From Promicromonospora sp. MEB111 (GTDB lineage: Bacteria; Actinomycetota; Actinomycetes; Actinomycetales; Cellulomonadaceae): 64,000 bases of DNA. Under the pieces are notes generated by a model. That model did not search any database. It was not told the DNA's origin and saw only the letters and a program-made list of their open reading frames with translations. The stretch lies in the NCBI RefSeq assembly GCF_030209445.1, contig NZ_JARVSD010000005.1, positions 124,001-188,000 of the forward strand. Reading direction: 5' to 3'. The first letter of the stretch is position 1; each line of letters begins with the position of its first letter. Positions 52,180 through 61,601 of the stretch are shown here, in pieces. Position numbers and translations under genes: made by a program.

Positions 52180-53127
52180 TCAGACCTTGGCGTCCAGCCA
52201 GTCCAGCACCGTGGTCAGGTACTTCTCCCGGGCCGGCTTCGGGGACAGCGCCAGGTCGTGGGCGCCGCCCTCGATCACTGCGATCTCCACGGTCGTCCCC
52301 AGCCTCGGCGCCCGCGCGTGCATGTGCGCGACGTCGAGCACCACGTCCGTGCCGAGCTGCTCGGCGACCTCCCCGGCGTCGGACCCGGTCCGGCCGCTGG
52401 TACACACGAGCACCGGGCACTGCACGGACAGCCCGCGTCCGACGGCGCGGTGCCCGCGGCGGATCGCCGCCAGCCACCCGGCCCGCACCGGGAACCCCGC
52501 GTACGGCTTCCACCGCAGGTCGTACTCCCACTCGCCGCCGGAGGTGACGTGCAGGGCCCGGCCGTAGCCCTCGCCGAGCCGGGACACGACCAGCCGGGGC
52601 GAGACCCGGCCGAGCACGTAGACGGCCTGGGTGACCAGGGTGCGGTCGGACCAGCTGCCCTTGAGGTCGAACCAGGGGCTGTTCAGCACCAGGGCCGACA
52701 CCCGGTCGGGGCGGGCGTTCGCGTACATCGAGGTGATGAGGCCGCCCGTCGAGTGCCCCAGGAGCACCAGCCCGGTGTGGCCGTCCGCGGCGATCACGGC
52801 GGCGGCGGCGTCGAGGTCCTGCGCGTAGAGCTCCAGGCGGTTGATCATGTTGGCGTCGCGGCCCGCCGCCGTCCACGCGTCCATGGAGCGACCGTGACCG
52901 CGCAGGTCGACGGCGTAGAACGGGTAGCCCCGCCCGGCGACGGCCTCGGCCAGGTGCCGCTGGAAGAAGTAGTCGGTGAACCCGTGGACGTACAGCACCG
53001 GCGTGCGTCCGACCACCGGCCCGCCCTCGGGCGTGTAGCGGATCAGGGTGGCCTCGGTGCTGCCCGGGAGGTGGAGCGTCCGCGCGTCGAAGCCCGCGCC
53101 CAGCACGTCCTCGGTCCAGTCGTTCAC
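52180..53127 (-). CDS. Alpha/beta hydrolase, monoacylglycerol-lipase-like
   Basis: A 315-residue serine hydrolase. The oxyanion stretch VLYVHGFTDYFFQRHLAEA, DLRGHGRSMDAW and the nucleophile elbow LLGHSTGGL are intact; the acid is probably in the VLVCTSGRTGSDAGEVAEQ region and the His in EGGAHDLALS. This matches the Hydrolase_4 (lysophospholipase) group, cytoplasmic, without a signal peptide. GTG at 53127 overlaps the MFS stop by four bases, so it is translated with the transporter and may process what that transporter moves. Confidence 0.9.
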   Translation of the reverse strand: MNDWTEDVLGAGFDARTLHLPGSTEATLIRYTPEGGPVVGRTPVLYVHGFTDYFFQRHLAEAVAGRGYPFYAVDLRGHGRSMDAWTAAGRDANMINRLELYAQDLDAAAAVIAADGHTGLVLLGHSTGGLITSMYANARPDRVSALVLNSPWFDLKGSWSDRTLVTQAVYVLGRVSPRLVVSRLGEGYGRALHVTSGGEWEYDLRWKPYAGFPVRAGWLAAIRRGHRAVGRGLSVQCPVLVCTSGRTGSDAGEVAEQLGTDVVLDVAHMHARAPRLGTTVEIAVIEGGAHDLALSPKPAREKYLTTVLDWLDAKV

Positions 53128-54509
53128 CCGGCCAGTGTGCCCGACGTGCGCCGCGTGCGGCCAGACAACATGCGCTCCTGGCGCAACGCGGGAAGGAAGC
53201 ACAGGGCGCCCAGCGTGCTGAACACCCCGCCGACGACCATGGCCGCCTGGGTGGACAGCAGGCCCGCCGTCCAGCCGAGAGCGGGGGCGGCCAGCGAATA
53301 GGCGGCGAACCCGAGCATCGACGCCATCGACAGCACTGTGGTGCGATTGCGGGACTCGGCCTCGCGGTGCAGCAGCGCCTGGTAGGCGGGCCCGCACGCG
53401 CCGTGCAGCCCGTAGGTCACGAGGTACGCGGCGATCAGGCCGACCGGACCGAGCGCGAGCCCCATCCACACCGTCCCGAGCCCGTTGAGCACACGCGCGA
53501 TGATCGCCGTCCGGGCCACGCCGAGCCGGGGCGTGGCCAGGCCCGTCAGGGCTGCCCCGCCCGCGAAGACCGCCCAGCCGGCGGCCGCGGCCGGCCCGGA
53601 GACCGCGGCCCCGGCCTGGGTGCCGCCCAGGAGCTCGGACAGCCGGATCGGCTGGAACGTCTCGAACACCACCATCCCCACGCTCCAGAACACCTCGACG
53701 ATCAGCAGCCAGCGCAGCACCCGGTTGTCCCGCGCGAGGCGCAGGCCGTCGCGGACCACCCCGGGCGCCTGCCGCGCGGAGTCCAGCACCCGCGCGGTCA
53801 CCTTCCGCTCGTCCGACGACGGCGACGGCGGCAGGGCCGGTGTCGCCCCGGGGCCGGCCACCCCGGCGTCGGCCGCGGCGTCCGCCGTGCCCGCTCCGGC
53901 GAGGTGCGCCGTCGTGCGCGGCGCCTCGCGGACCAGCACGACCACGGCGACCAGGTGCACGATCGAGAGCACCCCGTAGATCGCGTAGGGCAGCACGAGC
54001 GCGGACCACGCGCCCAGCGGGTGCCACCAGACCAGCCCGCCGGAGACGAGGGCGCCGGCGGCGATCGAGACGCCGAGCACGGTGCTCTGCGCGGCGAGCG
54101 GGCGGTCGACGTCGGCCCCCGGTTCGGTGGCGTGCACCGTGTCGACGAACCAGGCCTCCAGCGGGCCGGAGTCGAGCGCCCGGAAGATGCCGGTGACCGC
54201 GGCGGCGAGGGCGAAGGCCCAGAAGGACTGCGCGGTGAGGAACAGGGCGGCGGCCGCCACCTGCAGCACGGCGGCGGCGACCAGCATCGGGCGCCGTCCG
54301 AGGGAGTCGGCGAGGCCGCTGGTGGGCAGCTCCAGCGCGAACACGACGAAGCCGGCGACGGACAGCGCCGTGAGCGCCTGCGGCACCGACAGCCCGCGCT
54401 CGATCGGCAGCAGCGTGGTGACCGTGACGACCAGCCCGACGGGGAACCAGCGGGTCAGGGTCAGCAGCAGGAAGACCTGCCGGGCGCGGTGCGGGGTCAG
54501 GGGGGTCAT
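53124..54509 (-). CDS. MFS transporter
   Basis: A 461-residue twelve-helix major facilitator. The loop 2-3 motif is SGLADSLGRRPMLVAAAV, and ALDSGPLEAWFVDTVHA resembles the group of MFS proteins that includes tetracycline-like exporters. A long cytoplasmic loop (about residues 185-240) is Ala/Asp-rich. The ATG at 54509 overlaps the stop of the ArsR gene upstream, and its own stop overlaps the hydrolase start, making a three-gene operon under the ArsR-type regulator. Substrate unknown. Confidence 0.92.
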   Translation of the reverse strand: MTPLTPHRARQVFLLLTLTRWFPVGLVVTVTTLLPIERGLSVPQALTALSVAGFVVFALELPTSGLADSLGRRPMLVAAAVLQVAAAALFLTAQSFWAFALAAAVTGIFRALDSGPLEAWFVDTVHATEPGADVDRPLAAQSTVLGVSIAAGALVSGGLVWWHPLGAWSALVLPYAIYGVLSIVHLVAVVVLVREAPRTTAHLAGAGTADAAADAGVAGPGATPALPPSPSSDERKVTARVLDSARQAPGVVRDGLRLARDNRVLRWLLIVEVFWSVGMVVFETFQPIRLSELLGGTQAGAAVSGPAAAAGWAVFAGGAALTGLATPRLGVARTAIIARVLNGLGTVWMGLALGPVGLIAAYLVTYGLHGACGPAYQALLHREAESRNRTTVLSMASMLGFAAYSLAAPALGWTAGLLSTQAAMVVGGVFSTLGALCFLPALRQERMLSGRTRRTSGTLAG

Positions 54510-55150
54510 GGCCGGTCCGTCCGGTCATCCGTCCCGTCATCCGTGCCGGCGGAGGTGCCGGCGACGGCGCCGTCCGCGCCCGGGATGTCGTCCGCCTCCA
54601 GCGGGAAGGCGGCCTGCCAGATCGTGACACGGCGGGCGCCGGGGCCGCCCCCGGCCTCCCGGTACCGCTCGAGCAGCAGGTCCACGTCCGCGCGGAGCGC
54701 CGTGAGCTGCTCGGCGTTCAGGTCGAGCCAGGCGTCGCCCTGGCCCGCGGCGTCCTGCCACTCGCTGGGCCAGGCCTCGGCGACGTCGAGCCAGTGGCCG
54801 AACTCGGTGCTGAAGAGCCGCAGGTAGTCACGCTGCAGCCAGCTCAGCGCGGTGGCGGCGTCCTCGTCGACGGAGAGCTCCGAGGGCGCCCAGCTGTGGG
54901 AGCTCGTGGAGGCGCGCCACAGGCGCTGCTTGCCGGCGCCGTCGCCGGTGTCCGCGACCAGGCCCACGGACTCCAGCTTGCGCAGGTGGTAGCTGGTGGC
55001 TCCGGTGTTGGTGCTGAGCGCCGTGGCGAGCGTGGTGGCCGTCGCGGGCCCGCCGCGCCGCAGGGCGCCGAGCAGGCGCGAGCGCAGCGGGTGGGCGAGC
55101 ACCTTGACGGCCTCGGGGTTGAGGCGGAAGTCGTCCTGGGGAGCGGTCAT
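54506..55150 (-). CDS. ArsR-type winged-helix regulator
   Basis: A 214-residue regulator. The N-terminal third is an HTH_20/ArsR-like domain: EAVKVLAHPLRSRLLGALRRGG, TTLATALSTNTGATSYHLRKLESVGLV and the wing VADTGDGAGKQRLWRAS. The C-terminal two thirds (EFGHWLDVAEAWPSEW, LTALRADVDLLLERYREAGGG) form a helical ligand domain seen in larger members. There are no metal-binding cysteines, so it probably senses a small organic compound. ATG at 55150 is chosen because the longer frame would translate the operator. It leads the MFS-hydrolase operon and likely represses it. Confidence 0.9.
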   Translation of the reverse strand: MTAPQDDFRLNPEAVKVLAHPLRSRLLGALRRGGPATATTLATALSTNTGATSYHLRKLESVGLVADTGDGAGKQRLWRASTSSHSWAPSELSVDEDAATALSWLQRDYLRLFSTEFGHWLDVAEAWPSEWQDAAGQGDAWLDLNAEQLTALRADVDLLLERYREAGGGPGARRVTIWQAAFPLEADDIPGADGAVAGTSAGTDDGTDDRTDRP

Positions 55151-55152
55151 AC

Positions 55153-55210
55153 GTGCACAGTACGCATGCACAATCCCTGTGCACAAGAGTCATGCACAAT
55201 AATTGTGCAT
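55153..55210 (-). promoter_or_regulatory. TGTGCA operator array and probable leaderless promoter of the ArsR operon
   Basis: ATGCACAAT-A-ATTGTGCAT (55192-55210) is a perfect 9-1-9 palindrome. TGCACA-N5-TGTGCA (55167-55183) is a second, and GTGCACA (55153-55159) a further half-site. On the minus strand TTGTGC (-35) and TACTGT (-10), 18 bases apart, lie within these sites, and the -10 ends six bases before the ATG, implying a leaderless mRNA. Confidence 0.7.
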
Positions 55211-55221
55211 GTGTGGGTCCG

Positions 55222-55983
55222 TCAGAAGAGCATGACGACGGCGGTCACCACGCCCGCGACCACCACGAGCACCCGGAACACGCCGGGCGGCATCCTGCGG
55301 CCGATGCGCGCGCCCACGTACCCGCCCACCACGGAACCCGCGGCCAGCAGCCCGATCGCGAGCCAGTCGACGTCGGCGACGACCACGAAGATGACCGTGG
55401 CGACGAGGTTCGCGGCGAGCAGCGCCACCGTGCGCAGCGCGTTGATGTTCCGCACCGCCAGGTCGGTCCCGAGCCCCAGCACGGCGGCCATCATGACGCC
55501 GGCGCCCGCGCCGAAGTAGCCGCCGTACACGCCGGTCAGCACCGAGAACACGACCGTGGCGGGGGACATGCCGTGCCGCAGGCGGGTCGGCTCGTCGCGG
55601 GTGCGTCGCAGCCACCGGCTGATCCACGGCTGCACGCCCACCAGCAGGCAGGAGGTCAGGATCAGCCAGGGCACGATCGCCTCGAACACGCCCGGCGGCA
55701 GCGCGAGCAGCAGCACCGCGCCGCCCACGGACCCGACGGCGCAGGTCACGAGCACGATCATGGCCACGCGCGGGTGCTCGCGCAGCTCCTGGCGGTAGCC
55801 GAACGACCCGCTCAGCCCGGCGGGCACGAGCCCCACGGTGTTCGACGCGTTCGCGACGACGGGCGGCAGGCCCACGGCCAGCAGCACGGGGAAGCTCAGC
55901 AGCGAGGCGACACCGACGGTCGTGGACAGCACGCCCGCTCCGAAGCCGGCGCCGAGCACGGCGAGGTGCTCCCAGCCGGTCAC
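55222..55983 (-). CDS. TauE/SafE family anion exporter-like membrane protein
   Basis: A 253-residue membrane protein of the TauE/SafE (DUF81) family with eight helices in two similar halves. The half-repeats show as AGFGAGVLSTTVGVASLLSFPVLLAVGLPPVVANASNT, split here by family blocks, and GVYGGYFGAGAGVMMAAVLGLG. Members carry sulfite, sulfoacetate or other organic anions. GTG at 55983 overlaps the stop of the GntR regulator gene, so it is co-translated with the regulator that faces the carrier and CoA-transferase genes. A second, diverged TauE gene lies 5 kb away on the other side of that cluster. Confidence 0.9.
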   Translation of the reverse strand: MTGWEHLAVLGAGFGAGVLSTTVGVASLLSFPVLLAVGLPPVVANASNTVGLVPAGLSGSFGYRQELREHPRVAMIVLVTCAVGSVGGAVLLLALPPGVFEAIVPWLILTSCLLVGVQPWISRWLRRTRDEPTRLRHGMSPATVVFSVLTGVYGGYFGAGAGVMMAAVLGLGTDLAVRNINALRTVALLAANLVATVIFVVVADVDWLAIGLLAAGSVVGGYVGARIGRRMPPGVFRVLVVVAGVVTAVVMLF

Positions 55984-56693
55984 CGCTCGTCGTCCCGCAG
56001 CAGGGCCACGTCGCTGACCATCTCGACGTGCGCGTGCATGGCCGCGGCGGCGGCCGCCGGGTCGCGCTCGCGGATGGCGTCCGCGATGGCGCGGTGCCCG
56101 GTCAGGGAGTTGCGGGGCCGGCCGGGCTGCGAGAGCGACTCGATCCGGCTCTCCCGGATCAGGCTGGCGATCTCGCGCATGGTCCGGGCCAGCAGGTCGG
56201 AGTGTGCGGCGGCGGTCACCGCCGCGTGGAACTGCTCGTCGGCGTCCACGCCGCGGTCCCCGTGCTCGATGGACGCCGCCATCGCGTCGAGGGACGCGTC
56301 GATGGCGACGAGGTCGTCCTCGGTACGGCGCTGCGCGGCCAGGGCGGCGATCTTGGTCTCCAGCGCGTCCCGGATGTCGATGATCTCGGGCATGCGGTCG
56401 GCGTGCGCGCGGATGGCCTCGACGATGCGGCTCTCGCTGTGCCTGCCGGTCAGCACGGTGCCGTCGCCGTGCCGCACCACCACGACGCCCACCACCTCGA
56501 GCGCGACGAGCGCCTGGCTGAGGGTCGCGCGGCTGACGCCGAGCCGGGCCGCGAGCTCCCGCTCCGGGGGCAGCCGGTCGCCGGCTTTCAGCCCGTTCTG
56601 GTTGATCCACGTGGTGATCTGCTCCGCCACCTGCTCGTAGAGGCGGGTGCGGGCCAGCGGGGTCGGCAGTTCGGCGGAAGCCTTCGGGGTCAC
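55980..56693 (-). CDS. FadR-type GntR transcriptional regulator
   Basis: A 237-residue repressor. The N-terminal winged helix is LKAGDRLPPERELAARLGVSRATLSQAL, and the C-terminal helical FCD domain (about 90-230) shows the metal/ligand residues of this class: Asp in IIDIRDALE, His in DEQFHAAV and His in LTGHRAIADAI. FCD regulators usually bind carboxylic acids or CoA esters; MatR of malonate operons is one of them. GTG at 56693 has GGGA close upstream. It is divergent from the carrier/CoA-transferase/carboxyltransferase operon and overlaps the TauE gene. Confidence 0.92.
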   Translation of the reverse strand: MTPKASAELPTPLARTRLYEQVAEQITTWINQNGLKAGDRLPPERELAARLGVSRATLSQALVALEVVGVVVVRHGDGTVLTGRHSESRIVEAIRAHADRMPEIIDIRDALETKIAALAAQRRTEDDLVAIDASLDAMAASIEHGDRGVDADEQFHAAVTAAAHSDLLARTMREIASLIRESRIESLSQPGRPRNSLTGHRAIADAIRERDPAAAAAAMHAHVEMVSDVALLRDDER

Positions 56694-56706
56694 TCCCTGA
56701 GGATAC

Positions 56707-56741
56707 TTGACAGAACGGACACTGGCCTATTGGCTAGGCCA
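56707..56741 (+). promoter_or_regulatory. Promoter and operator palindrome between GntR gene and carrier operon
   Basis: TTGACA at 56707-56712 is a consensus -35 for the rightward operon. TGGCCTA-N5-TAGGCCA (56723-56741) is a perfect 7-5-7 inverted repeat lying where the -10 should be, so a bound GntR dimer would block polymerase. Confidence 0.6.
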
Positions 56742-56801
56742 CTGATCCATCGTGCCTCGTCGGTCAACGGTGACCGCCGCGATGGAGACAGAGGAGTTCT
56801 C

Positions 56802-58124
56802 ATGGGTCCTGAGTGGATCGCGATCATCGCGCTCGTCGCGTTGTTCGTCGCCGGGACAGTCCTGCCGATCAACATGGGCGCGCTCGCCTATGTCGCGGCG
56901 TGGTTTGTCGGCGTCTTCGCCCTGAACATGGACGAGAAGGAGGTGCTGGGCGGGATCAGCGCCGATCTCGTCCTGACGCTCGTCGGCGTCACGTACCTGT
57001 TCTCGATCGCCAAGAACAACGGCACCGTCGATCTCATCGTCTCCAAGGCCGTCCAGGCGGTCGGCGGCCGGGTGGCGCTCATCCCCTGGGTCATGTTCGC
57101 CGTGACCGCGCTGCTCACCGCGATCGGCGCGGCCAGCCCCGCGGCCTGCGCCATCATCGGCCCGGTCGCGCTCGGGTTCGCCCGCCGTTACAAGATCAAC
57201 CCGCTCATGATGGGCATGTTCGTGGTGCACGGGGCCCAGGGCGGCGGGTTCTCCCCGATCAGCATCTACGGCACCATCACCAACTCGGTCATGGCCGACG
57301 TCGGCTACGAGGGCACCGAGATGGGCGTCTTCATCGCGTCGCTCGCGATCAACACCGCGATGGCCGTGGTCCTGTTCCTCGCGCTCGGCGGCCGCCAGCT
57401 CATGAACGAGCGGGTCGATCCCGCCGACGCGTCCGGGCACCTCGTCGACGACCTGCACGCCGGTGGCGCCTCCGTCACCGTCAGCGGCCAGGGCGCGGGC
57501 GTCTCGACCACCACGCGCGGTCTCGGCGTGCGCCGCGACCACGTGCTGACCCTCGTCGCCTTCGCCGCCGTGGCCACGACCGCGCTCGCGTTCGACCAGA
57601 ACATCGGCTTCGTCTCGATCACCGCGGCCGTCGCGCTGGCCATGCTGTCCCCGCACCAGCACAAGGACGCCGTCAAGCAGATCGCCTGGCCCACCGTGCT
57701 GCTCGTCGCGGGCGTGAGCACCTACGCCGCGATCCTCACCGAGGCGGGCGCTCCCGAGTACATCGGCACCTGGGCCGCCGGCCTCGGCATCGCGGCCGTC
57801 GGCGCGCTCGTCCTGTGCTACGTGGGCGGGATCGCCTCGGCCTTCGCGTCGTCGACGGCGCTGCTGCCGGTCATCATCCCCATCGCCGTGCCGCTCATCG
57901 CCGGGGGCGGCGTGAGCCCGTGGGCCATGGCCGCCGCCCTGGCCGTCTCCTCGACCATCGTCGACGTGAGCCCCTTCTCCACGAACGGAGCCCTGATGCT
58001 CGCCAACCGCCCGGACACGATCTCCGAGCAGGCCTACTACAAGCAGATCCTCAACTACGCCATCATCGTCACCCTCGCGGGTCCGCTGCTGGTCTGGGCC
58101 ATCCTCGTCCTGCCGGGCTGGTGA
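56802..58124 (+). CDS. MatC-like dicarboxylate carrier
   Basis: A 440-residue carrier with about twelve helices, of the MatC/SLC13-like ion-transporter superfamily. The opening IALVALFVAGTVLPINMGALAYVAAW splits into two helices as in MatC_N proteins; VTALLTAIGAASPAACAIIGPVAL and FASSTALLPVIIPIAVPLI are the two re-entrant, substrate-binding stretches. MatC proteins import malonate or related dicarboxylates. AGAGGAG eight bases before the ATG at 56802 gives a strong ribosome site. It leads a three-gene operon with CoA-transferase and carboxyltransferase and is opposed by an FCD regulator. Confidence 0.88.
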   Translation: MGPEWIAIIALVALFVAGTVLPINMGALAYVAAWFVGVFALNMDEKEVLGGISADLVLTLVGVTYLFSIAKNNGTVDLIVSKAVQAVGGRVALIPWVMFAVTALLTAIGAASPAACAIIGPVALGFARRYKINPLMMGMFVVHGAQGGGFSPISIYGTITNSVMADVGYEGTEMGVFIASLAINTAMAVVLFLALGGRQLMNERVDPADASGHLVDDLHAGGASVTVSGQGAGVSTTTRGLGVRRDHVLTLVAFAAVATTALAFDQNIGFVSITAAVALAMLSPHQHKDAVKQIAWPTVLLVAGVSTYAAILTEAGAPEYIGTWAAGLGIAAVGALVLCYVGGIASAFASSTALLPVIIPIAVPLIAGGGVSPWAMAAALAVSSTIVDVSPFSTNGALMLANRPDTISEQAYYKQILNYAIIVTLAGPLLVWAILVLPGW

Positions 58125-59386
58125 GCACCATGACCGGACCCCTGGACGACGTCGTCGTCGTGGACCTCTCCCGGGCCCTCGCCGGGCCGCACGCGACCAT
58201 GATGCTCGGCGACCTGGGCGCGCGGGTGGTCAAGGTGGAGGTGCCCGGCCGGGGCGACGACACGCGTGGCTGGGGCCCGCCGTTTGTCGGCGAGGAGGGC
58301 GCCCGCGAGTCGACGTACTTCCTGTCCGCGAACCGCAACAAGGAGTCGATAGCGCTCGACCTCAAGGCCGACGCCGACCGGGCGACCCTGCTCGGCCTCG
58401 TCGACCGTGCCGACGTGCTCGTGGAAAACTTCCGGCCAGGCGTCCTGGACCGGCTCGGGCTGGGCGTCGAGACGCTGCTGGAGCGCAACCCGCGCCTGGT
58501 GGTGCTCTCGATCACCGGGTTCGGGCACGACGGTCCGGAGGGCGGCCGTGCCGGGTACGACCAGATCGCCCAGGGCGAGGCCGGCCTGATGTCCCTGACC
58601 GGCTCCGGACCGGACGACCCGCAGCGGGTGGGCGTACCGATCGGCGACCTGCTCGCCGGGATCTACGGCGCGTACGGCGTGCTGGCGGCGCTGCACGAGC
58701 GGCACCGGACCGGCGCCGGCCAGGTGGTGCGCACGTCGCTGCTGGCCGCCGTCACCGGGGTGCATGCCTTCCAGGGCACGCGGTGGACGGTCGCCGGGGA
58801 GGTGGGGCGCGCGCAGGGCAACCACCACCCTTCGATCGCGCCGTACGGCCTGTTCCGCTGCCGTGACGGCGCCGTCCAGATAGCCGTCGGGTCCGAGGCG
58901 CTGTGGCGGCGGTTCTGCCTCGCCTTCGGGCTCGACGCCGACGCGGAGGGCATGCGGAGCAACCCCGAGCGGGTGGCCCGCCGCGACCAGGTGATCAAGG
59001 TGGTCGAGGACGCGTTCGAGCCCTACGACGCCGACGCGCTGCTGACGCGGCTCGCCGACGCCGGGATCCCGGCGGGCCGGGTGCGTACGCTCGACGAGGT
59101 GTACGCATGGGAGCAGACCGCGAGCCAGGGGCTGCTCGTGGACGTGGAGCACACGAGCCTCGGCACCCTGACCCTGCCGGGCCCGCCGCTGCGGTTCTTC
59201 GACGCCGACGGCGCCGAGGTCACGCGGCGCGAGCACCGCGCACCGCCGGTGCTGGACGAGCACGCGGCCCGGATCCGGGCCTGGCTCGACGCGGCGGCGC
59301 GGCCGGGCGCGCCGGGGCTCGACGCCGCCGGGCCGTCGGCGTCCGCGCCGACGGCGTCCGCCCCGGGACCGGAGGCCGGCGCGTGA
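58121..59386 (+). CDS. Class III (CaiB/BaiF) CoA-transferase
   Basis: A 421-residue CoA-transferase in normal domain order. The N-terminal block VVVVDLSRALAGPHATMMLGDLGARVVKVE, here quoted in parts of the family pattern, includes ADVLVENFRPGVLDRLGLG and GYDQIAQGEAG, with the Asp near residue 146 at the catalytic position. The small domain follows (FRCRDGAVQIAVGSEALWRRF). It moves CoA from an acyl donor to a free acid. GTG at 58121 overlaps the carrier stop; ATG at 58130 is an alternative. Its tail is an Ala/Pro/Ser extension. It likely activates the acid imported by the carrier. Confidence 0.92.
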   Translation: MSTMTGPLDDVVVVDLSRALAGPHATMMLGDLGARVVKVEVPGRGDDTRGWGPPFVGEEGARESTYFLSANRNKESIALDLKADADRATLLGLVDRADVLVENFRPGVLDRLGLGVETLLERNPRLVVLSITGFGHDGPEGGRAGYDQIAQGEAGLMSLTGSGPDDPQRVGVPIGDLLAGIYGAYGVLAALHERHRTGAGQVVRTSLLAAVTGVHAFQGTRWTVAGEVGRAQGNHHPSIAPYGLFRCRDGAVQIAVGSEALWRRFCLAFGLDADAEGMRSNPERVARRDQVIKVVEDAFEPYDADALLTRLADAGIPAGRVRTLDEVYAWEQTASQGLLVDVEHTSLGTLTLPGPPLRFFDADGAEVTRREHRAPPVLDEHAARIRAWLDAAARPGAPGLDAAGPSASAPTASAPGPEAGA

Positions 59387-60810
59387 CCCGCCGCTGGACG
59401 GCGCGCGAGCTGCTCGACCTGGTGCTCGACGCCGACAGCTTCGAGTCCTGGGACGAGCCGGTCGACACCTCCGGGCACACCGCCGGGTACCGCGCGGTGC
59501 TGGCGGCCGCCACCGAGAAGGCCGGCACCGACGAGTCCGTGCTCACCGGGCGCGGGCACGTCCGTGGGCGGCCCGTGGTGGTCGTCGTCAACGAGTTCCG
59601 GTTCCTCGGGGGCTCCATCGGCCGGGCCGCCGCGCGGCGGATCACCACCGCCGTCCGGCGTGCGACGGCGGAGCGACTGCCCCTGCTGGCCACGACGGCG
59701 TCGGGCGGCACGCGCATGCAGGAGGGCACCCCCGCGTTCCTCCGGATGGTCGAGATCTCGCGTGCCGTCATGGCGCACCGCGACGCCGGTCTGCCCTACC
59801 TGGCCTACCTGCGGCACCCCACGACCGGCGGGGTCTACGCGTCCTGGGGCTCGCTCGCCCACCTCACCGTCGCCGAGCCGGGCGCCCTCATCGGGTTCCT
59901 GGGCCCGCGGGTGGTCGAGGCCCTGACGGGCGAGGCTCTGCCCGACGGCGTGCAGTCCGCCGAGAACCTCGCCGCCAAGGGCGTGCTCGACGGCGTCGTC
60001 ACGCCCGAGAGCCTGCCCGCGCTGGTCGAACGGGCGCTCGCGGTGCTGGTCGACCCGCCGTCGTCGTCCACGCTGCCACGCCGGACGGGCGAGCCGTCCG
60101 GGACGACGTCCGCGTGGGACTCCGTGCTGCGCACCCGCGCCGAGGGCCGGGTGGGCGTGCGGGACCTGCTGCGCCACGGCGCGTCGGGGACCGTGCGGCT
60201 GTCCGGCACGGAGGAGGGCGAGCGGGACGAGTCGATGCTGGTCGCGCTCACACGCCTGGACGGCCGGCCGTGCCTGGTCGTCGGGCAGGACCGGACCCGG
60301 CAGACCGAGAGCGCCCCGATGGGCCCGGCCGCGCTGCGCGTGGCCCGGCGCGCGATGGGGCTGGCCGAGGAGCTGCGACTGCCGCTGGTCGCCGTGATCG
60401 ACACCCCGGGGGCCGAGCTCTCGCAGGCCGCCGAGGAAGGCGCGCTCGCCGGCGAGATCGCGCGCTGCATGGCCGCGCTCACCCGGATGACCGTGCCCAC
60501 GCTGTCGGTCATCCTGGGCCAGGGCTGCGGCGGCGGGGCGCTCGCGCTGCTGCCCGCGCAGGCGGTGATCGCGGCCGAGCACGCCTGGCTGTCGCCGCTG
60601 CCGCCCGAGGGGGCGAGCGTCATCGTGCACGGGGACACCGCGCACGCGGCCGAGATGGCCGAGGCCCAGCACGTGCGGGCGGTCGACCTGCTCGCCGAGG
60701 GCGCGGTGCAGCGGGTGGTCCCGGAGCACGACGACGACACGGTGCGAGACGTCGCCGTCGCCGTGGCGGCGGAGTGCGCGGCCGTGCTGGCCGACCTGGC
60801 CCGGGCCTAG
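59383..60810 (+). CDS. Fused AccD/AccA-like carboxyltransferase
   Basis: A 475-residue protein with a beta-type (AccD) half and an alpha-type (AccA) half. LLATTASGGTRMQEGTPAF and the YASWGSLAHLTVAEPGALIGFLGPR stretch belong to AccD; VAVIDTPGAELSQAAEEGALAGEIARC and ILGQGCGGGALALLPAQ to AccA. Both oxyanion-hole Gly motifs are kept. The N-terminal zinc ribbon of bacterial AccD is missing, and no biotin carboxylase or carrier gene is nearby. It could decarboxylate or transcarboxylate the CoA ester made by the preceding enzyme. GTG at 59383 overlaps that gene's stop. Convergent with the second TauE gene, stops overlapping in CTAG. Confidence 0.9.
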   Translation: MTRRWTARELLDLVLDADSFESWDEPVDTSGHTAGYRAVLAAATEKAGTDESVLTGRGHVRGRPVVVVVNEFRFLGGSIGRAAARRITTAVRRATAERLPLLATTASGGTRMQEGTPAFLRMVEISRAVMAHRDAGLPYLAYLRHPTTGGVYASWGSLAHLTVAEPGALIGFLGPRVVEALTGEALPDGVQSAENLAAKGVLDGVVTPESLPALVERALAVLVDPPSSSTLPRRTGEPSGTTSAWDSVLRTRAEGRVGVRDLLRHGASGTVRLSGTEEGERDESMLVALTRLDGRPCLVVGQDRTRQTESAPMGPAALRVARRAMGLAEELRLPLVAVIDTPGAELSQAAEEGALAGEIARCMAALTRMTVPTLSVILGQGCGGGALALLPAQAVIAAEHAWLSPLPPEGASVIVHGDTAHAAEMAEAQHVRAVDLLAEGAVQRVVPEHDDDTVRDVAVAVAAECAAVLADLARA

Positions 60811-61601
60811 CGCTTCTGCAGGGCCTTGCGGACCTGCTGGACCAGGGCGAACACGAGCAGCGCCGCGAACGCGATCGAGGCCACGTTGTCGGGCAGGACC
60901 ACCGACAGGCTCGCGCCGCCGAACGAGAACGCGGACGCCACCAGGCCGATGACCGCCGCCGTCTTCAGGTGCACCAGGCCGTTGCGGGCGTTGACCCAGG
61001 TGCCCGACACGGCCGTGGGGATCATCGCGACCAGCGAGGTGCCCTTGGCGAGCGCGGGGGCGAAGTCGAACAGGGCGGACAGCCCCGGCACGGCGATCTG
61101 GCCGCCGCCGATCCCGAGCAGGCCCGACGCGATGCCCATGACGAGGCCGAGCCCGACCATGCCGGCGCCGTCGATCAGGCTGGGGATGCCCTGCGCGGTG
61201 TCGACCAGCGGCGGGTCGGCGAACGCGTCGAGCAGGGACCGCACGATGCCCGCCACGAGCACGCCGACGAACAGCCAGCGCAGGAGGGTCTCCGGCACGC
61301 GCGCGAGCAGCCGGGCGCCGTACGCGGCGCCGACCACGGAACCCACCACGAGCAGCGCGGCCGAGATCAGGTCGACCGCCTGGTGGGTCAGGTACGGGAT
61401 GGAGCCGACGATCGCCGCCGGCAGGATCGCCGCGAGCGAGTAGGCGCTGGCCCGGCGCTGCGTGAGGCCGCCGAGCGAGGTGAGGAGCGGGACCATCACG
61501 ATGCCGCCGCCCAGACCGAACAGCCCGGAGAACGACCCGCCGACGATCCCCACGAGGACGGCGCGGGGTGGGGTCAGGGAGTCGTCAGTCTGCTCGGTCA
61601 C
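60807..61601 (-). CDS. TauE/SafE family membrane protein, second copy
   Basis: A 264-residue eight-helix protein. The two family half-motifs are plain: [23 protein letters not shown] near the N-terminus and [19 protein letters not shown] in the second half, cited here as separate blocks. It is closer to the classical TauE/SafE consensus than the copy at 55.2-56.0 kb. GTG at 61601 lies inside the end of the CPT-kinase gene (17-base overlap), so the two are co-translated. Its stop overlaps the carboxyltransferase stop. Anion export is likely; whether it serves the acid-CoA cluster is unknown. Confidence 0.92.

Follow-up and report, generated by a model that had tools for sequence, protein, structure and literature searches.

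A conserved actinomycete gene cassette, probably for malonate utilisation, that joins a MatC-like carrier to a CoA-transferase and a fused AccD/AccA carboxyltransferase

Which acid is handled, and by what chemistry, when a MatC-like carrier is encoded beside a class III coenzyme A (CoA)-transferase of the CaiB type and a carboxyltransferase (CT) in which AccD- and AccA-like halves are fused? The question is raised by a 64,000-nucleotide stretch of Promicromonospora sp. MEB111 (contig NZ_JARVSD010000005.1, positions 124,001 to 188,000; hereafter the window), which comes from a genome of 6.2 Mb. An earlier note on this DNA proposed a route of uptake, activation and decarboxylation and left the substrate open; that logic agrees with the conserved gene set described here, and the substrate is narrowed to malonate by the association of both enzyme genes, CaiB and CT, with barbiturase. 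The locus is probably a malonate-utilisation cassette, with import by MatC, CoA transfer by CaiB, biotin-free decarboxylation by CT and repression by an FCD-type regulator.

The genes form two groups facing each other across an operator-like motif. On the minus strand lie a TauE/SafE membrane protein gene (TauE1, 55222..55983; PF01925, 134.1 bits), a conserved member of the cassette that may be a candidate for acid or anion transport, and an FCD-type GntR regulator gene (55980..56693; PF07729 FCD, 100.7 bits; PF00392 GntR, 71 bits), whose product has the pyruvate dehydrogenase complex repressor as its closest solved chain and is probably the repressor of the cassette. On the plus strand are the MatC-like dicarboxylate carrier (56802..58124; PF07158 MatC_N, 180.8 bits; CitMHS, 99.3 bits), probably a malonate importer; CaiB (58130..59386; PF02515 CoA_transf_3, 382.5 bits; conserved Asp173), the proposed malonate CoA-transferase; and the AccD3-like CT (59383..60810; PF01039 Carboxyl_trans, 195.5 bits; PF03255 ACCA, 131.9 bits), proposed to be a biotin-independent malonyl-CoA decarboxylase. 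The Pfam scores of the cassette proteins all exceed cut-off and, together with the coordinates, they bear out the gene content and positions given in the earlier note. It had also described three overlapping rightward genes: this holds for CaiB and CT, which share 4 bp, whereas MatC and CaiB are 5 bp apart and overlap only with the GTG at 58121 as the CaiB start. An AMP-binding family is matched by none of the six proteins of the cassette and its flank, although MatB was not searched for genome-wide.

Conservation of this gene set was assessed in the best 80 of 436 candidate CT stretches in named genomes. The complete TauE-FCD-MatC-CaiB set stands beside CT in 52 of these 80 named loci, from Promicromonospora, Nocardioides, Terrabacter, Terracoccus, Intrasporangium, Marmoricola and Aeromicrobium; seven have a partial set and 21 have none, five of the latter having little upstream sequence. 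In other families FCD, MatC, CaiB and CT are found side by side, at times in a different order (L105, L205, L206, L208, L212, L215, L226, L227 and L228), and one locus (L216) has FCD, MatC and CT without CaiB. The set is therefore kept together in several actinomycete families, and the objection foreseen in the earlier note, a lack of conservation beyond close relatives, falls away. Among named genomes, the closest relatives of the window CT are those of Promicromonospora species (90-95% identity). At E<=1e-50, CT is present in 12 of 13 genomes of the same genus (the host included), in 0 of 24 from other genera of the family and in 5 of 22 from other families of the order, a patchy distribution that suggests horizontal gain or loss. 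In a tree of 96 CT rows, built by a quick method and rooted at the midpoint, copies from cassettes, copies linked to CaiB and orphans are interspersed; every row linked to barbiturase belongs to the same half, MatC cassettes are present in both, and L106 sits on a long branch, its placement being unsure. Such interleaving fits one shared chemistry with changing partners.

The intergenic region between regulator and carrier carries the operator-like motif TGGCCTATTGGCTAGGCCACTGATCCA (56723..56749, no strand assigned), within which the palindromic operator announced in the earlier note is found as TGGCCTA-N5-TAGGCCA at 56723-56741. With TGGCCTATTGGCTAGGCCA from the window as reference, 17-19 of 19 positions are kept in 53 of 53 FCD-MatC intergenic regions, the window's included, in which both flanking genes are at least 60% identical to those of the window. 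The perfect palindrome is confined to the window and L027, the remaining 51 regions matching at 17 or 18 positions, and 20 simple shuffles of each region reach 14 of 19 at most. Within the host genome the core CTATTGGCTAGGCCACTG has a single match at up to three mismatches, and the same pattern reversed has ten. Among further loci, 16 of 20 have at least 15 of the 19 positions within 300 bp before the first gene, a count made without shuffles and in which L208 and L225 are the same place; L105, L226, L227 and L209 fall below this level, with variants visible by eye upstream of FCD in L105, L226 and L227. The motif also precedes FCD and CT alone (L082), FCD and CaiB-CT where MatC is absent (L084, L092, L097 and L117), and MatC in two barbiturase-linked operons (L102 and L171). 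Its conservation across genera and families exceeds chance.

Those two operons, from families f16 and f47, respectively, have the gene order MatC-CaiB-CT-carbamate kinase-barbiturase in one run, so that the module of the window is joined directly to barbiturase. In a third locus (L103, family f5) CaiB-CT is followed by carbamate kinase (305 bits against a subfamily cut-off of 266) and then by barbiturase. The family PF09663 covers both barbiturase and cyanuric acid hydrolase, and only the L103 protein was compared with solved structures, scoring 703 bits to barbiturase (PDB 5hwe), where the best-matching cyanuric acid hydrolase gave 330; the other barbiturases called here match the L103 protein (74-91% in one set). 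Carbamate kinase accompanies barbiturase in 19 of 21 loci of one neighbourhood set and 15 of 15 of another. Family f38 extends the operon to HyuA-HyuB-CaiB-CT-carbamate kinase-barbiturase (L177 and L178), an order also found with one or two extra called frames between in L175, L181 and L185, and with two extra genes between in L103; the suggestion that HyuA-HyuB order is general was rejected on a recount, being true of f38 and, with the extra genes, of f5. HyuA and HyuB, of which one example each was compared, belong to the hydantoinase/oxoprolinase family and are closest to caprolactamase subunits, far below cut-off. The f38 operon, which adjoins fmt- and rsmB-like genes, is a candidate for a near-complete barbiturate pathway, in which HyuAB and carbamate kinase may take part.

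The association extends beyond these operons. A search of 394 genomes of the class, at thresholds of our own choosing, found CT in 156 (E<=1e-60), PF09663 in 81 and CaiB in 94 (E<=1e-130); linkage was counted on the listed places, comprising at least 150 CT places in at least 138 genomes, 98 CaiB places and 84 PF09663 places. CaiB and PF09663 occur together in 73 of the 394 genomes where about 19 would be expected, with a hypergeometric P of 1.7e-50 that ignores phylogeny. They lie within 20 kb of each other in 42 of these 73 genomes, spread over eight family codes, and at least 21 of the 31 genomes in which the two are unlinked have CaiB beside CT (hand count). A listed CT lies within 20 kb of PF09663 in at least 22 genomes, and CaiB within 300 bp of a listed CT in at least 57 (58 of 98 CaiB places). 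Less open to phylogeny than the overall co-occurrence is the contrast within one genus code (g93): among its 18 genomes with a listed CT, CaiB is present in 11 of 11 with barbiturase and in 1 of 7 without (hand count). Where CaiB and barbiturase lack CT, a substitute decarboxylase was sought among 12 neighbouring proteins from six such loci, which to the eye look unrelated. Barbiturase and ureidomalonase together yield malonate and urea (PMC3758960), which, with CaiB and CT so often linked to barbiturase, makes malonate the best-supported substrate. A literature search found no account of the CaiB half of the route and no work in which a CaiB-type transferase is connected with barbiturase or MatC, although most subscription journals lay outside its coverage.

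CaiB matches the class III CoA-transferase family profile (PF02515), and the aspartate expected to be catalytic, D173, is kept in at least 98% of 120 rows; judging from match ranges, we take this residue to be the counterpart of Asp169 of formyl-CoA transferase. Its best NCBIfam models, all below cut-off, are the succinate--glutarate (299 bits, cut-off 750), mesaconate (265) and oxalate (239) CoA-transferases, so that its closest named relatives act on dicarboxylates; among solved chains the first match is 4ed9, from a CaiB/BaiF protein whose substrate is not named, and the next is succinate--hydroxymethylglutarate transferase. A glutarate/succinate route, as the name of the first model would imply, was set aside in view of its 299 of 750 bits and the barbiturase link to malonate.

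In CT, residues 4-230 align with AccD from residue 53/54 of the latter, and those from about 240 onward with AccA; CT is thus an AccD-AccA fusion without the AccD N-terminal part, presumably the part that holds zinc. By sequence the AccD half scores 141 bits, the AccA half 89 and the 12S transcarboxylase, over nearly the whole length, 87. Every NCBIfam match is below cut-off: accD 186 of 317 bits, accA 98 of 319, malonate_beta (MdcD) 79 of 278 and malonate_gamma (MdcE) 23.5 of 237. In a set of 42 CT rows the AccD, AccA and MdcD models match all 42 and MdcE matches 22, with best E-values of 1e-57, 2e-49, 7e-23 and 2e-9, respectively. S107-G108-G109, G381, G383 and G384 are kept in at least 98% of 157 rows, and A388, which aligns with an alanine of AccA at a position that we take to matter for acyl size, is invariant in 39. 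An AlphaFold model (mean pLDDT 91.7, pTM 0.91) has the 12S transcarboxylase and the propionyl-CoA carboxylase beta subunit as its top solved folds. Sequence does not prove CT a decarboxylase, a function proposed here from context and analogy. The precedent is MdcD-MdcE, which decarboxylates malonyl-CoA in vitro, more weakly than a true malonyl-CoA decarboxylase (MCD) (PMC5534430), and so shows that a CT fold can act in this way.

In the proposed mechanism, MatC would import malonate; CaiB would form malonyl-CoA by moving CoA onto it from an acyl-CoA donor, of which acetyl-CoA and succinyl-CoA are the probable ones; and the fused CT would release acetyl-CoA and CO2 without biotin. With acetyl-CoA as donor, CaiB and CT would form a cycle that turns malonate into acetate and CO2 at no ATP cost, much as the Mdc malonate decarboxylase does, except that free CoA would replace the acyl carrier protein. 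The FCD regulator, bound at the conserved operator, would repress the cassette as long as malonate and malonyl-CoA are absent. In other actinomycetes, the same CaiB and CT would serve barbiturate breakdown in the oxidative pyrimidine pathway, malonate arising inside the cell. A CoA-transferase and a carboxyltransferase would in this way provide an ATP-free and probably biotin-free malonate route.

A mycobacterial protein, AccD3, bears on whether CT needs biotin. Orphan CTs from family f22 fall inside the CT tree, and in the one such locus inspected (L210) CT is, as read by eye, divergent from an enoyl-CoA hydratase gene, which is followed by genes for a metallo-hydrolase and a serine hydrolase. 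This is the gene order at M. tuberculosis accD3, and judged by that order the window CT is probably an AccD3 orthologue. On a Tsukamurella plasmid, genes annotated as enoyl-CoA hydratase and MBL-fold protein lie no more than a few kb from CT, and two f22 genomes (G104 and G339) each have one orphan CT and one FCD-MatC-CaiB-CT set. If the orthology holds, and only then, the AccD3 literature bears on the window CT. There, AccD3 showed no interaction with any partner tested (PMC4347857); deletion of accD3 left the fatty and mycolic acids of M. smegmatis unchanged, a second homologue, MSMEG_2169, exists, and the metabolic function is said to await further study (PMC5311964). The present proposal offers AccD3 a concrete and testable function.

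Several observations weigh against the malonate cassette as proposed. CT is without cassette genes in 21 of the 80 named loci, and at 40 of the 98 places with CaiB no CT is listed inside 300 bp (at some of them the contig ends), so the CaiB-CT pair is not obligatory. In L106 and L207, CaiB-CT belongs to clusters that look aromatic, with FAD-dependent aromatic ring hydroxylases close by, and for these malonate is no obvious explanation. CT is closer to AccD than to MdcD, and by sequence alone leans towards a carboxylase; the search that found no biotin carboxylase near it on its contig (C3) did not extend to biotin carriers. The P value for CaiB and barbiturase takes no account of phylogeny, 8 of the 81 genomes with barbiturase have no CaiB that passes the threshold, and PF09663 has no match in the host genome, where the cassette is therefore not part of a barbiturase pathway.

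Three other explanations were weighed. CT could be biotin-dependent, borrowing the carrier and carboxylase of the cell's acyl-CoA carboxylase, so that the cassette makes or interconverts malonyl-CoA and does more than decarboxylate it; a role for CT as part of the housekeeping acetyl-CoA carboxylase is retained as a rival of the same kind. AccD and AccA are indeed its best matches among hidden Markov models (HMMs), and its fold is that of biotin-dependent enzymes. However, the two biotin carboxylase matches of the host genome lie on other contigs (C5 and C11), which also carry the other CT matches; AccD3, if orthologous, showed no interaction with the partners tried, and its loss from M. smegmatis had no effect on fatty and mycolic acids; and a CoA-transferase that yields malonyl-CoA would need no carboxylase. 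We regard biotin dependence as unlikely. About equally improbable is methylmalonate, or another substituted malonate, as substrate: CaiB would make methylmalonyl-CoA and CT propionyl-CoA, with thymine oxidised by a like route as a possible source. The top folds, 12S methylmalonyl-CoA transcarboxylase and propionyl-CoA carboxylase beta, speak for this, and mmdA is among the HMM matches of CT, far below cut-off. Against it, the AccD and AccA halves keep a modest lead over 12S in sequence, the invariant A388 sides with AccA, and barbiturate itself leads to malonate.

Least probable is a different acid, whether glutarate, oxalate, carnitine or one derived from aromatics, the barbiturase link then passing through another intermediate such as ureidomalonate. 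The named models closest to CaiB and the ring hydroxylase clusters point that way; yet the MatC_N carrier, the AccD/AccA-type CT and barbiturase jointly indicate malonate, and cassettes without barbiturase still have their own importer, which would not be expected of ureidomalonate.

A broader version of the malonate cassette is more tentative, and we think it somewhat less than an even chance. In it, AccD3-like fused CTs would in general be biotin-independent malonyl-CoA decarboxylases and, with CaiB, a portable two-gene malonate module, placed under the FCD operator for external malonate and combined elsewhere with HyuAB, carbamate kinase and barbiturase to make up most of a barbiturate operon, where the kinase would regain ATP at the expense of the ureido group. 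Were that step to hold, oxidative pyrimidine breakdown would conserve energy and not merely release urea. The proposal also puts forward candidate genes for what becomes of malonate once barbiturase has acted, for which none is named in the portion of the barbiturase literature covered here.

Some further loci and neighbouring genes are recorded here. Stand-alone Aeromicrobium CTs are flanked on one side by a GlnR-type regulator (PF21695) and on the other by mshD (TIGR03448, above its cut-off), as at 7181-10246 of L067 and similarly in L069 and L080, with ppk- and pstS-like genes visible by eye farther along, unlike the MatC cassette copy. A split form of CT may exist, the AccD-like and AccA-like halves of L243 (G225:C13:113122-114490) occupying two separate frames of 245 and 367 aa; AccD-only matches were rejected as split genes, being mostly alignment gaps and contig ends. 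On Paenarthrobacter and Arthrobacter plasmids an M20-family hydrolase precedes CaiB-CT, with an amidase nearby (L108, by Pfam; L110, by cluster, its CT being read as two frames), and one might speculate that these hydrolases free malonate from malonyl-amides. In the window, a second TauE/SafE gene (60807..61601, minus strand; PF01925, 153 bits) is convergent with the cassette; its close matches stand beside CT only in Promicromonospora and same-genus loci, which places it outside the wider cassette. On the other side, a perfect 10-bp inverted repeat, CATGCACAAT-A-ATTGTGCATG (55191-55211), lies immediately upstream of the gene for a regulator of the ArsR type (54506-55186; HTH_20 and HTH_5 matches), and is likely an operator for that gene and for a major facilitator superfamily gene at 53124-54509.

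Among known systems, the MatABC/MatR operon of Rhizobium comes first to mind, in which an FCD/GntR regulator and a MatC carrier accompany the conversion of malonate to malonyl-CoA and its subsequent decarboxylation. The window shares the regulator and the carrier (PF07729 and PF07158) and, as proposed, activation followed by decarboxylation, but has a CoA-transferase instead of the MatB ligase and an AccD/AccA-type CT instead of the MCD-family MatA. The MCD family (PF05292) had no match in the host genome or in 40 chosen genomes, in a run without a positive control. A single regular expression for AMP-binding, MatB-like ligases near CTs matched in 2 of 51 loci (L219 and L220), and the L220 match looks by eye like a propionyl-CoA synthetase. 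MatA, MatB and MatC are named in reference 24 of PMC6491548, and that paper counts malonyl-CoA decarboxylases among CT-domain proteins and calls Saccharopolyspora SACE_3856 an orthologue of MatA of S. coelicolor. These CT-type enzymes, which may or may not belong to the CT clade, resemble the proposed decarboxylase in name and domain, and no CoA-transferase is mentioned with them in the portion of the paper covered here. The decarboxylase half is to that extent less new than the earlier note supposed when it did not recognise the route as described.

The Mdc system (MdcA-E) likewise joins acyl exchange to decarboxylation in a carboxyltransferase-fold site, taking malonate to acetate and CO2 (PMC5534430). 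It differs in using an acyl carrier protein with a CoA-like group, where free CoA is proposed here and where no such gene is found among the conserved genes of the cassette loci; in its MdcA step, which the unrelated CaiB would perform; and in its MdcD and MdcE equivalogs, whose cut-offs the window CT fails to reach. The window CT also scores below the AccA and AccD equivalog cut-offs of acetyl-CoA carboxylase and lacks the AccD N-terminal part. Mycobacterial AccD3 stands alone, whereas the window CT is part of a MatC-CaiB operon. The same CaiB and CT recur at many barbiturase loci, while the host genome, which has no barbiturase match, has an importer of its own. The cassette is therefore proposed to be a variant of malonate utilisation, in which the ligase and MCD of MatABC have been replaced and CoA stands in for the acyl carrier protein of Mdc.

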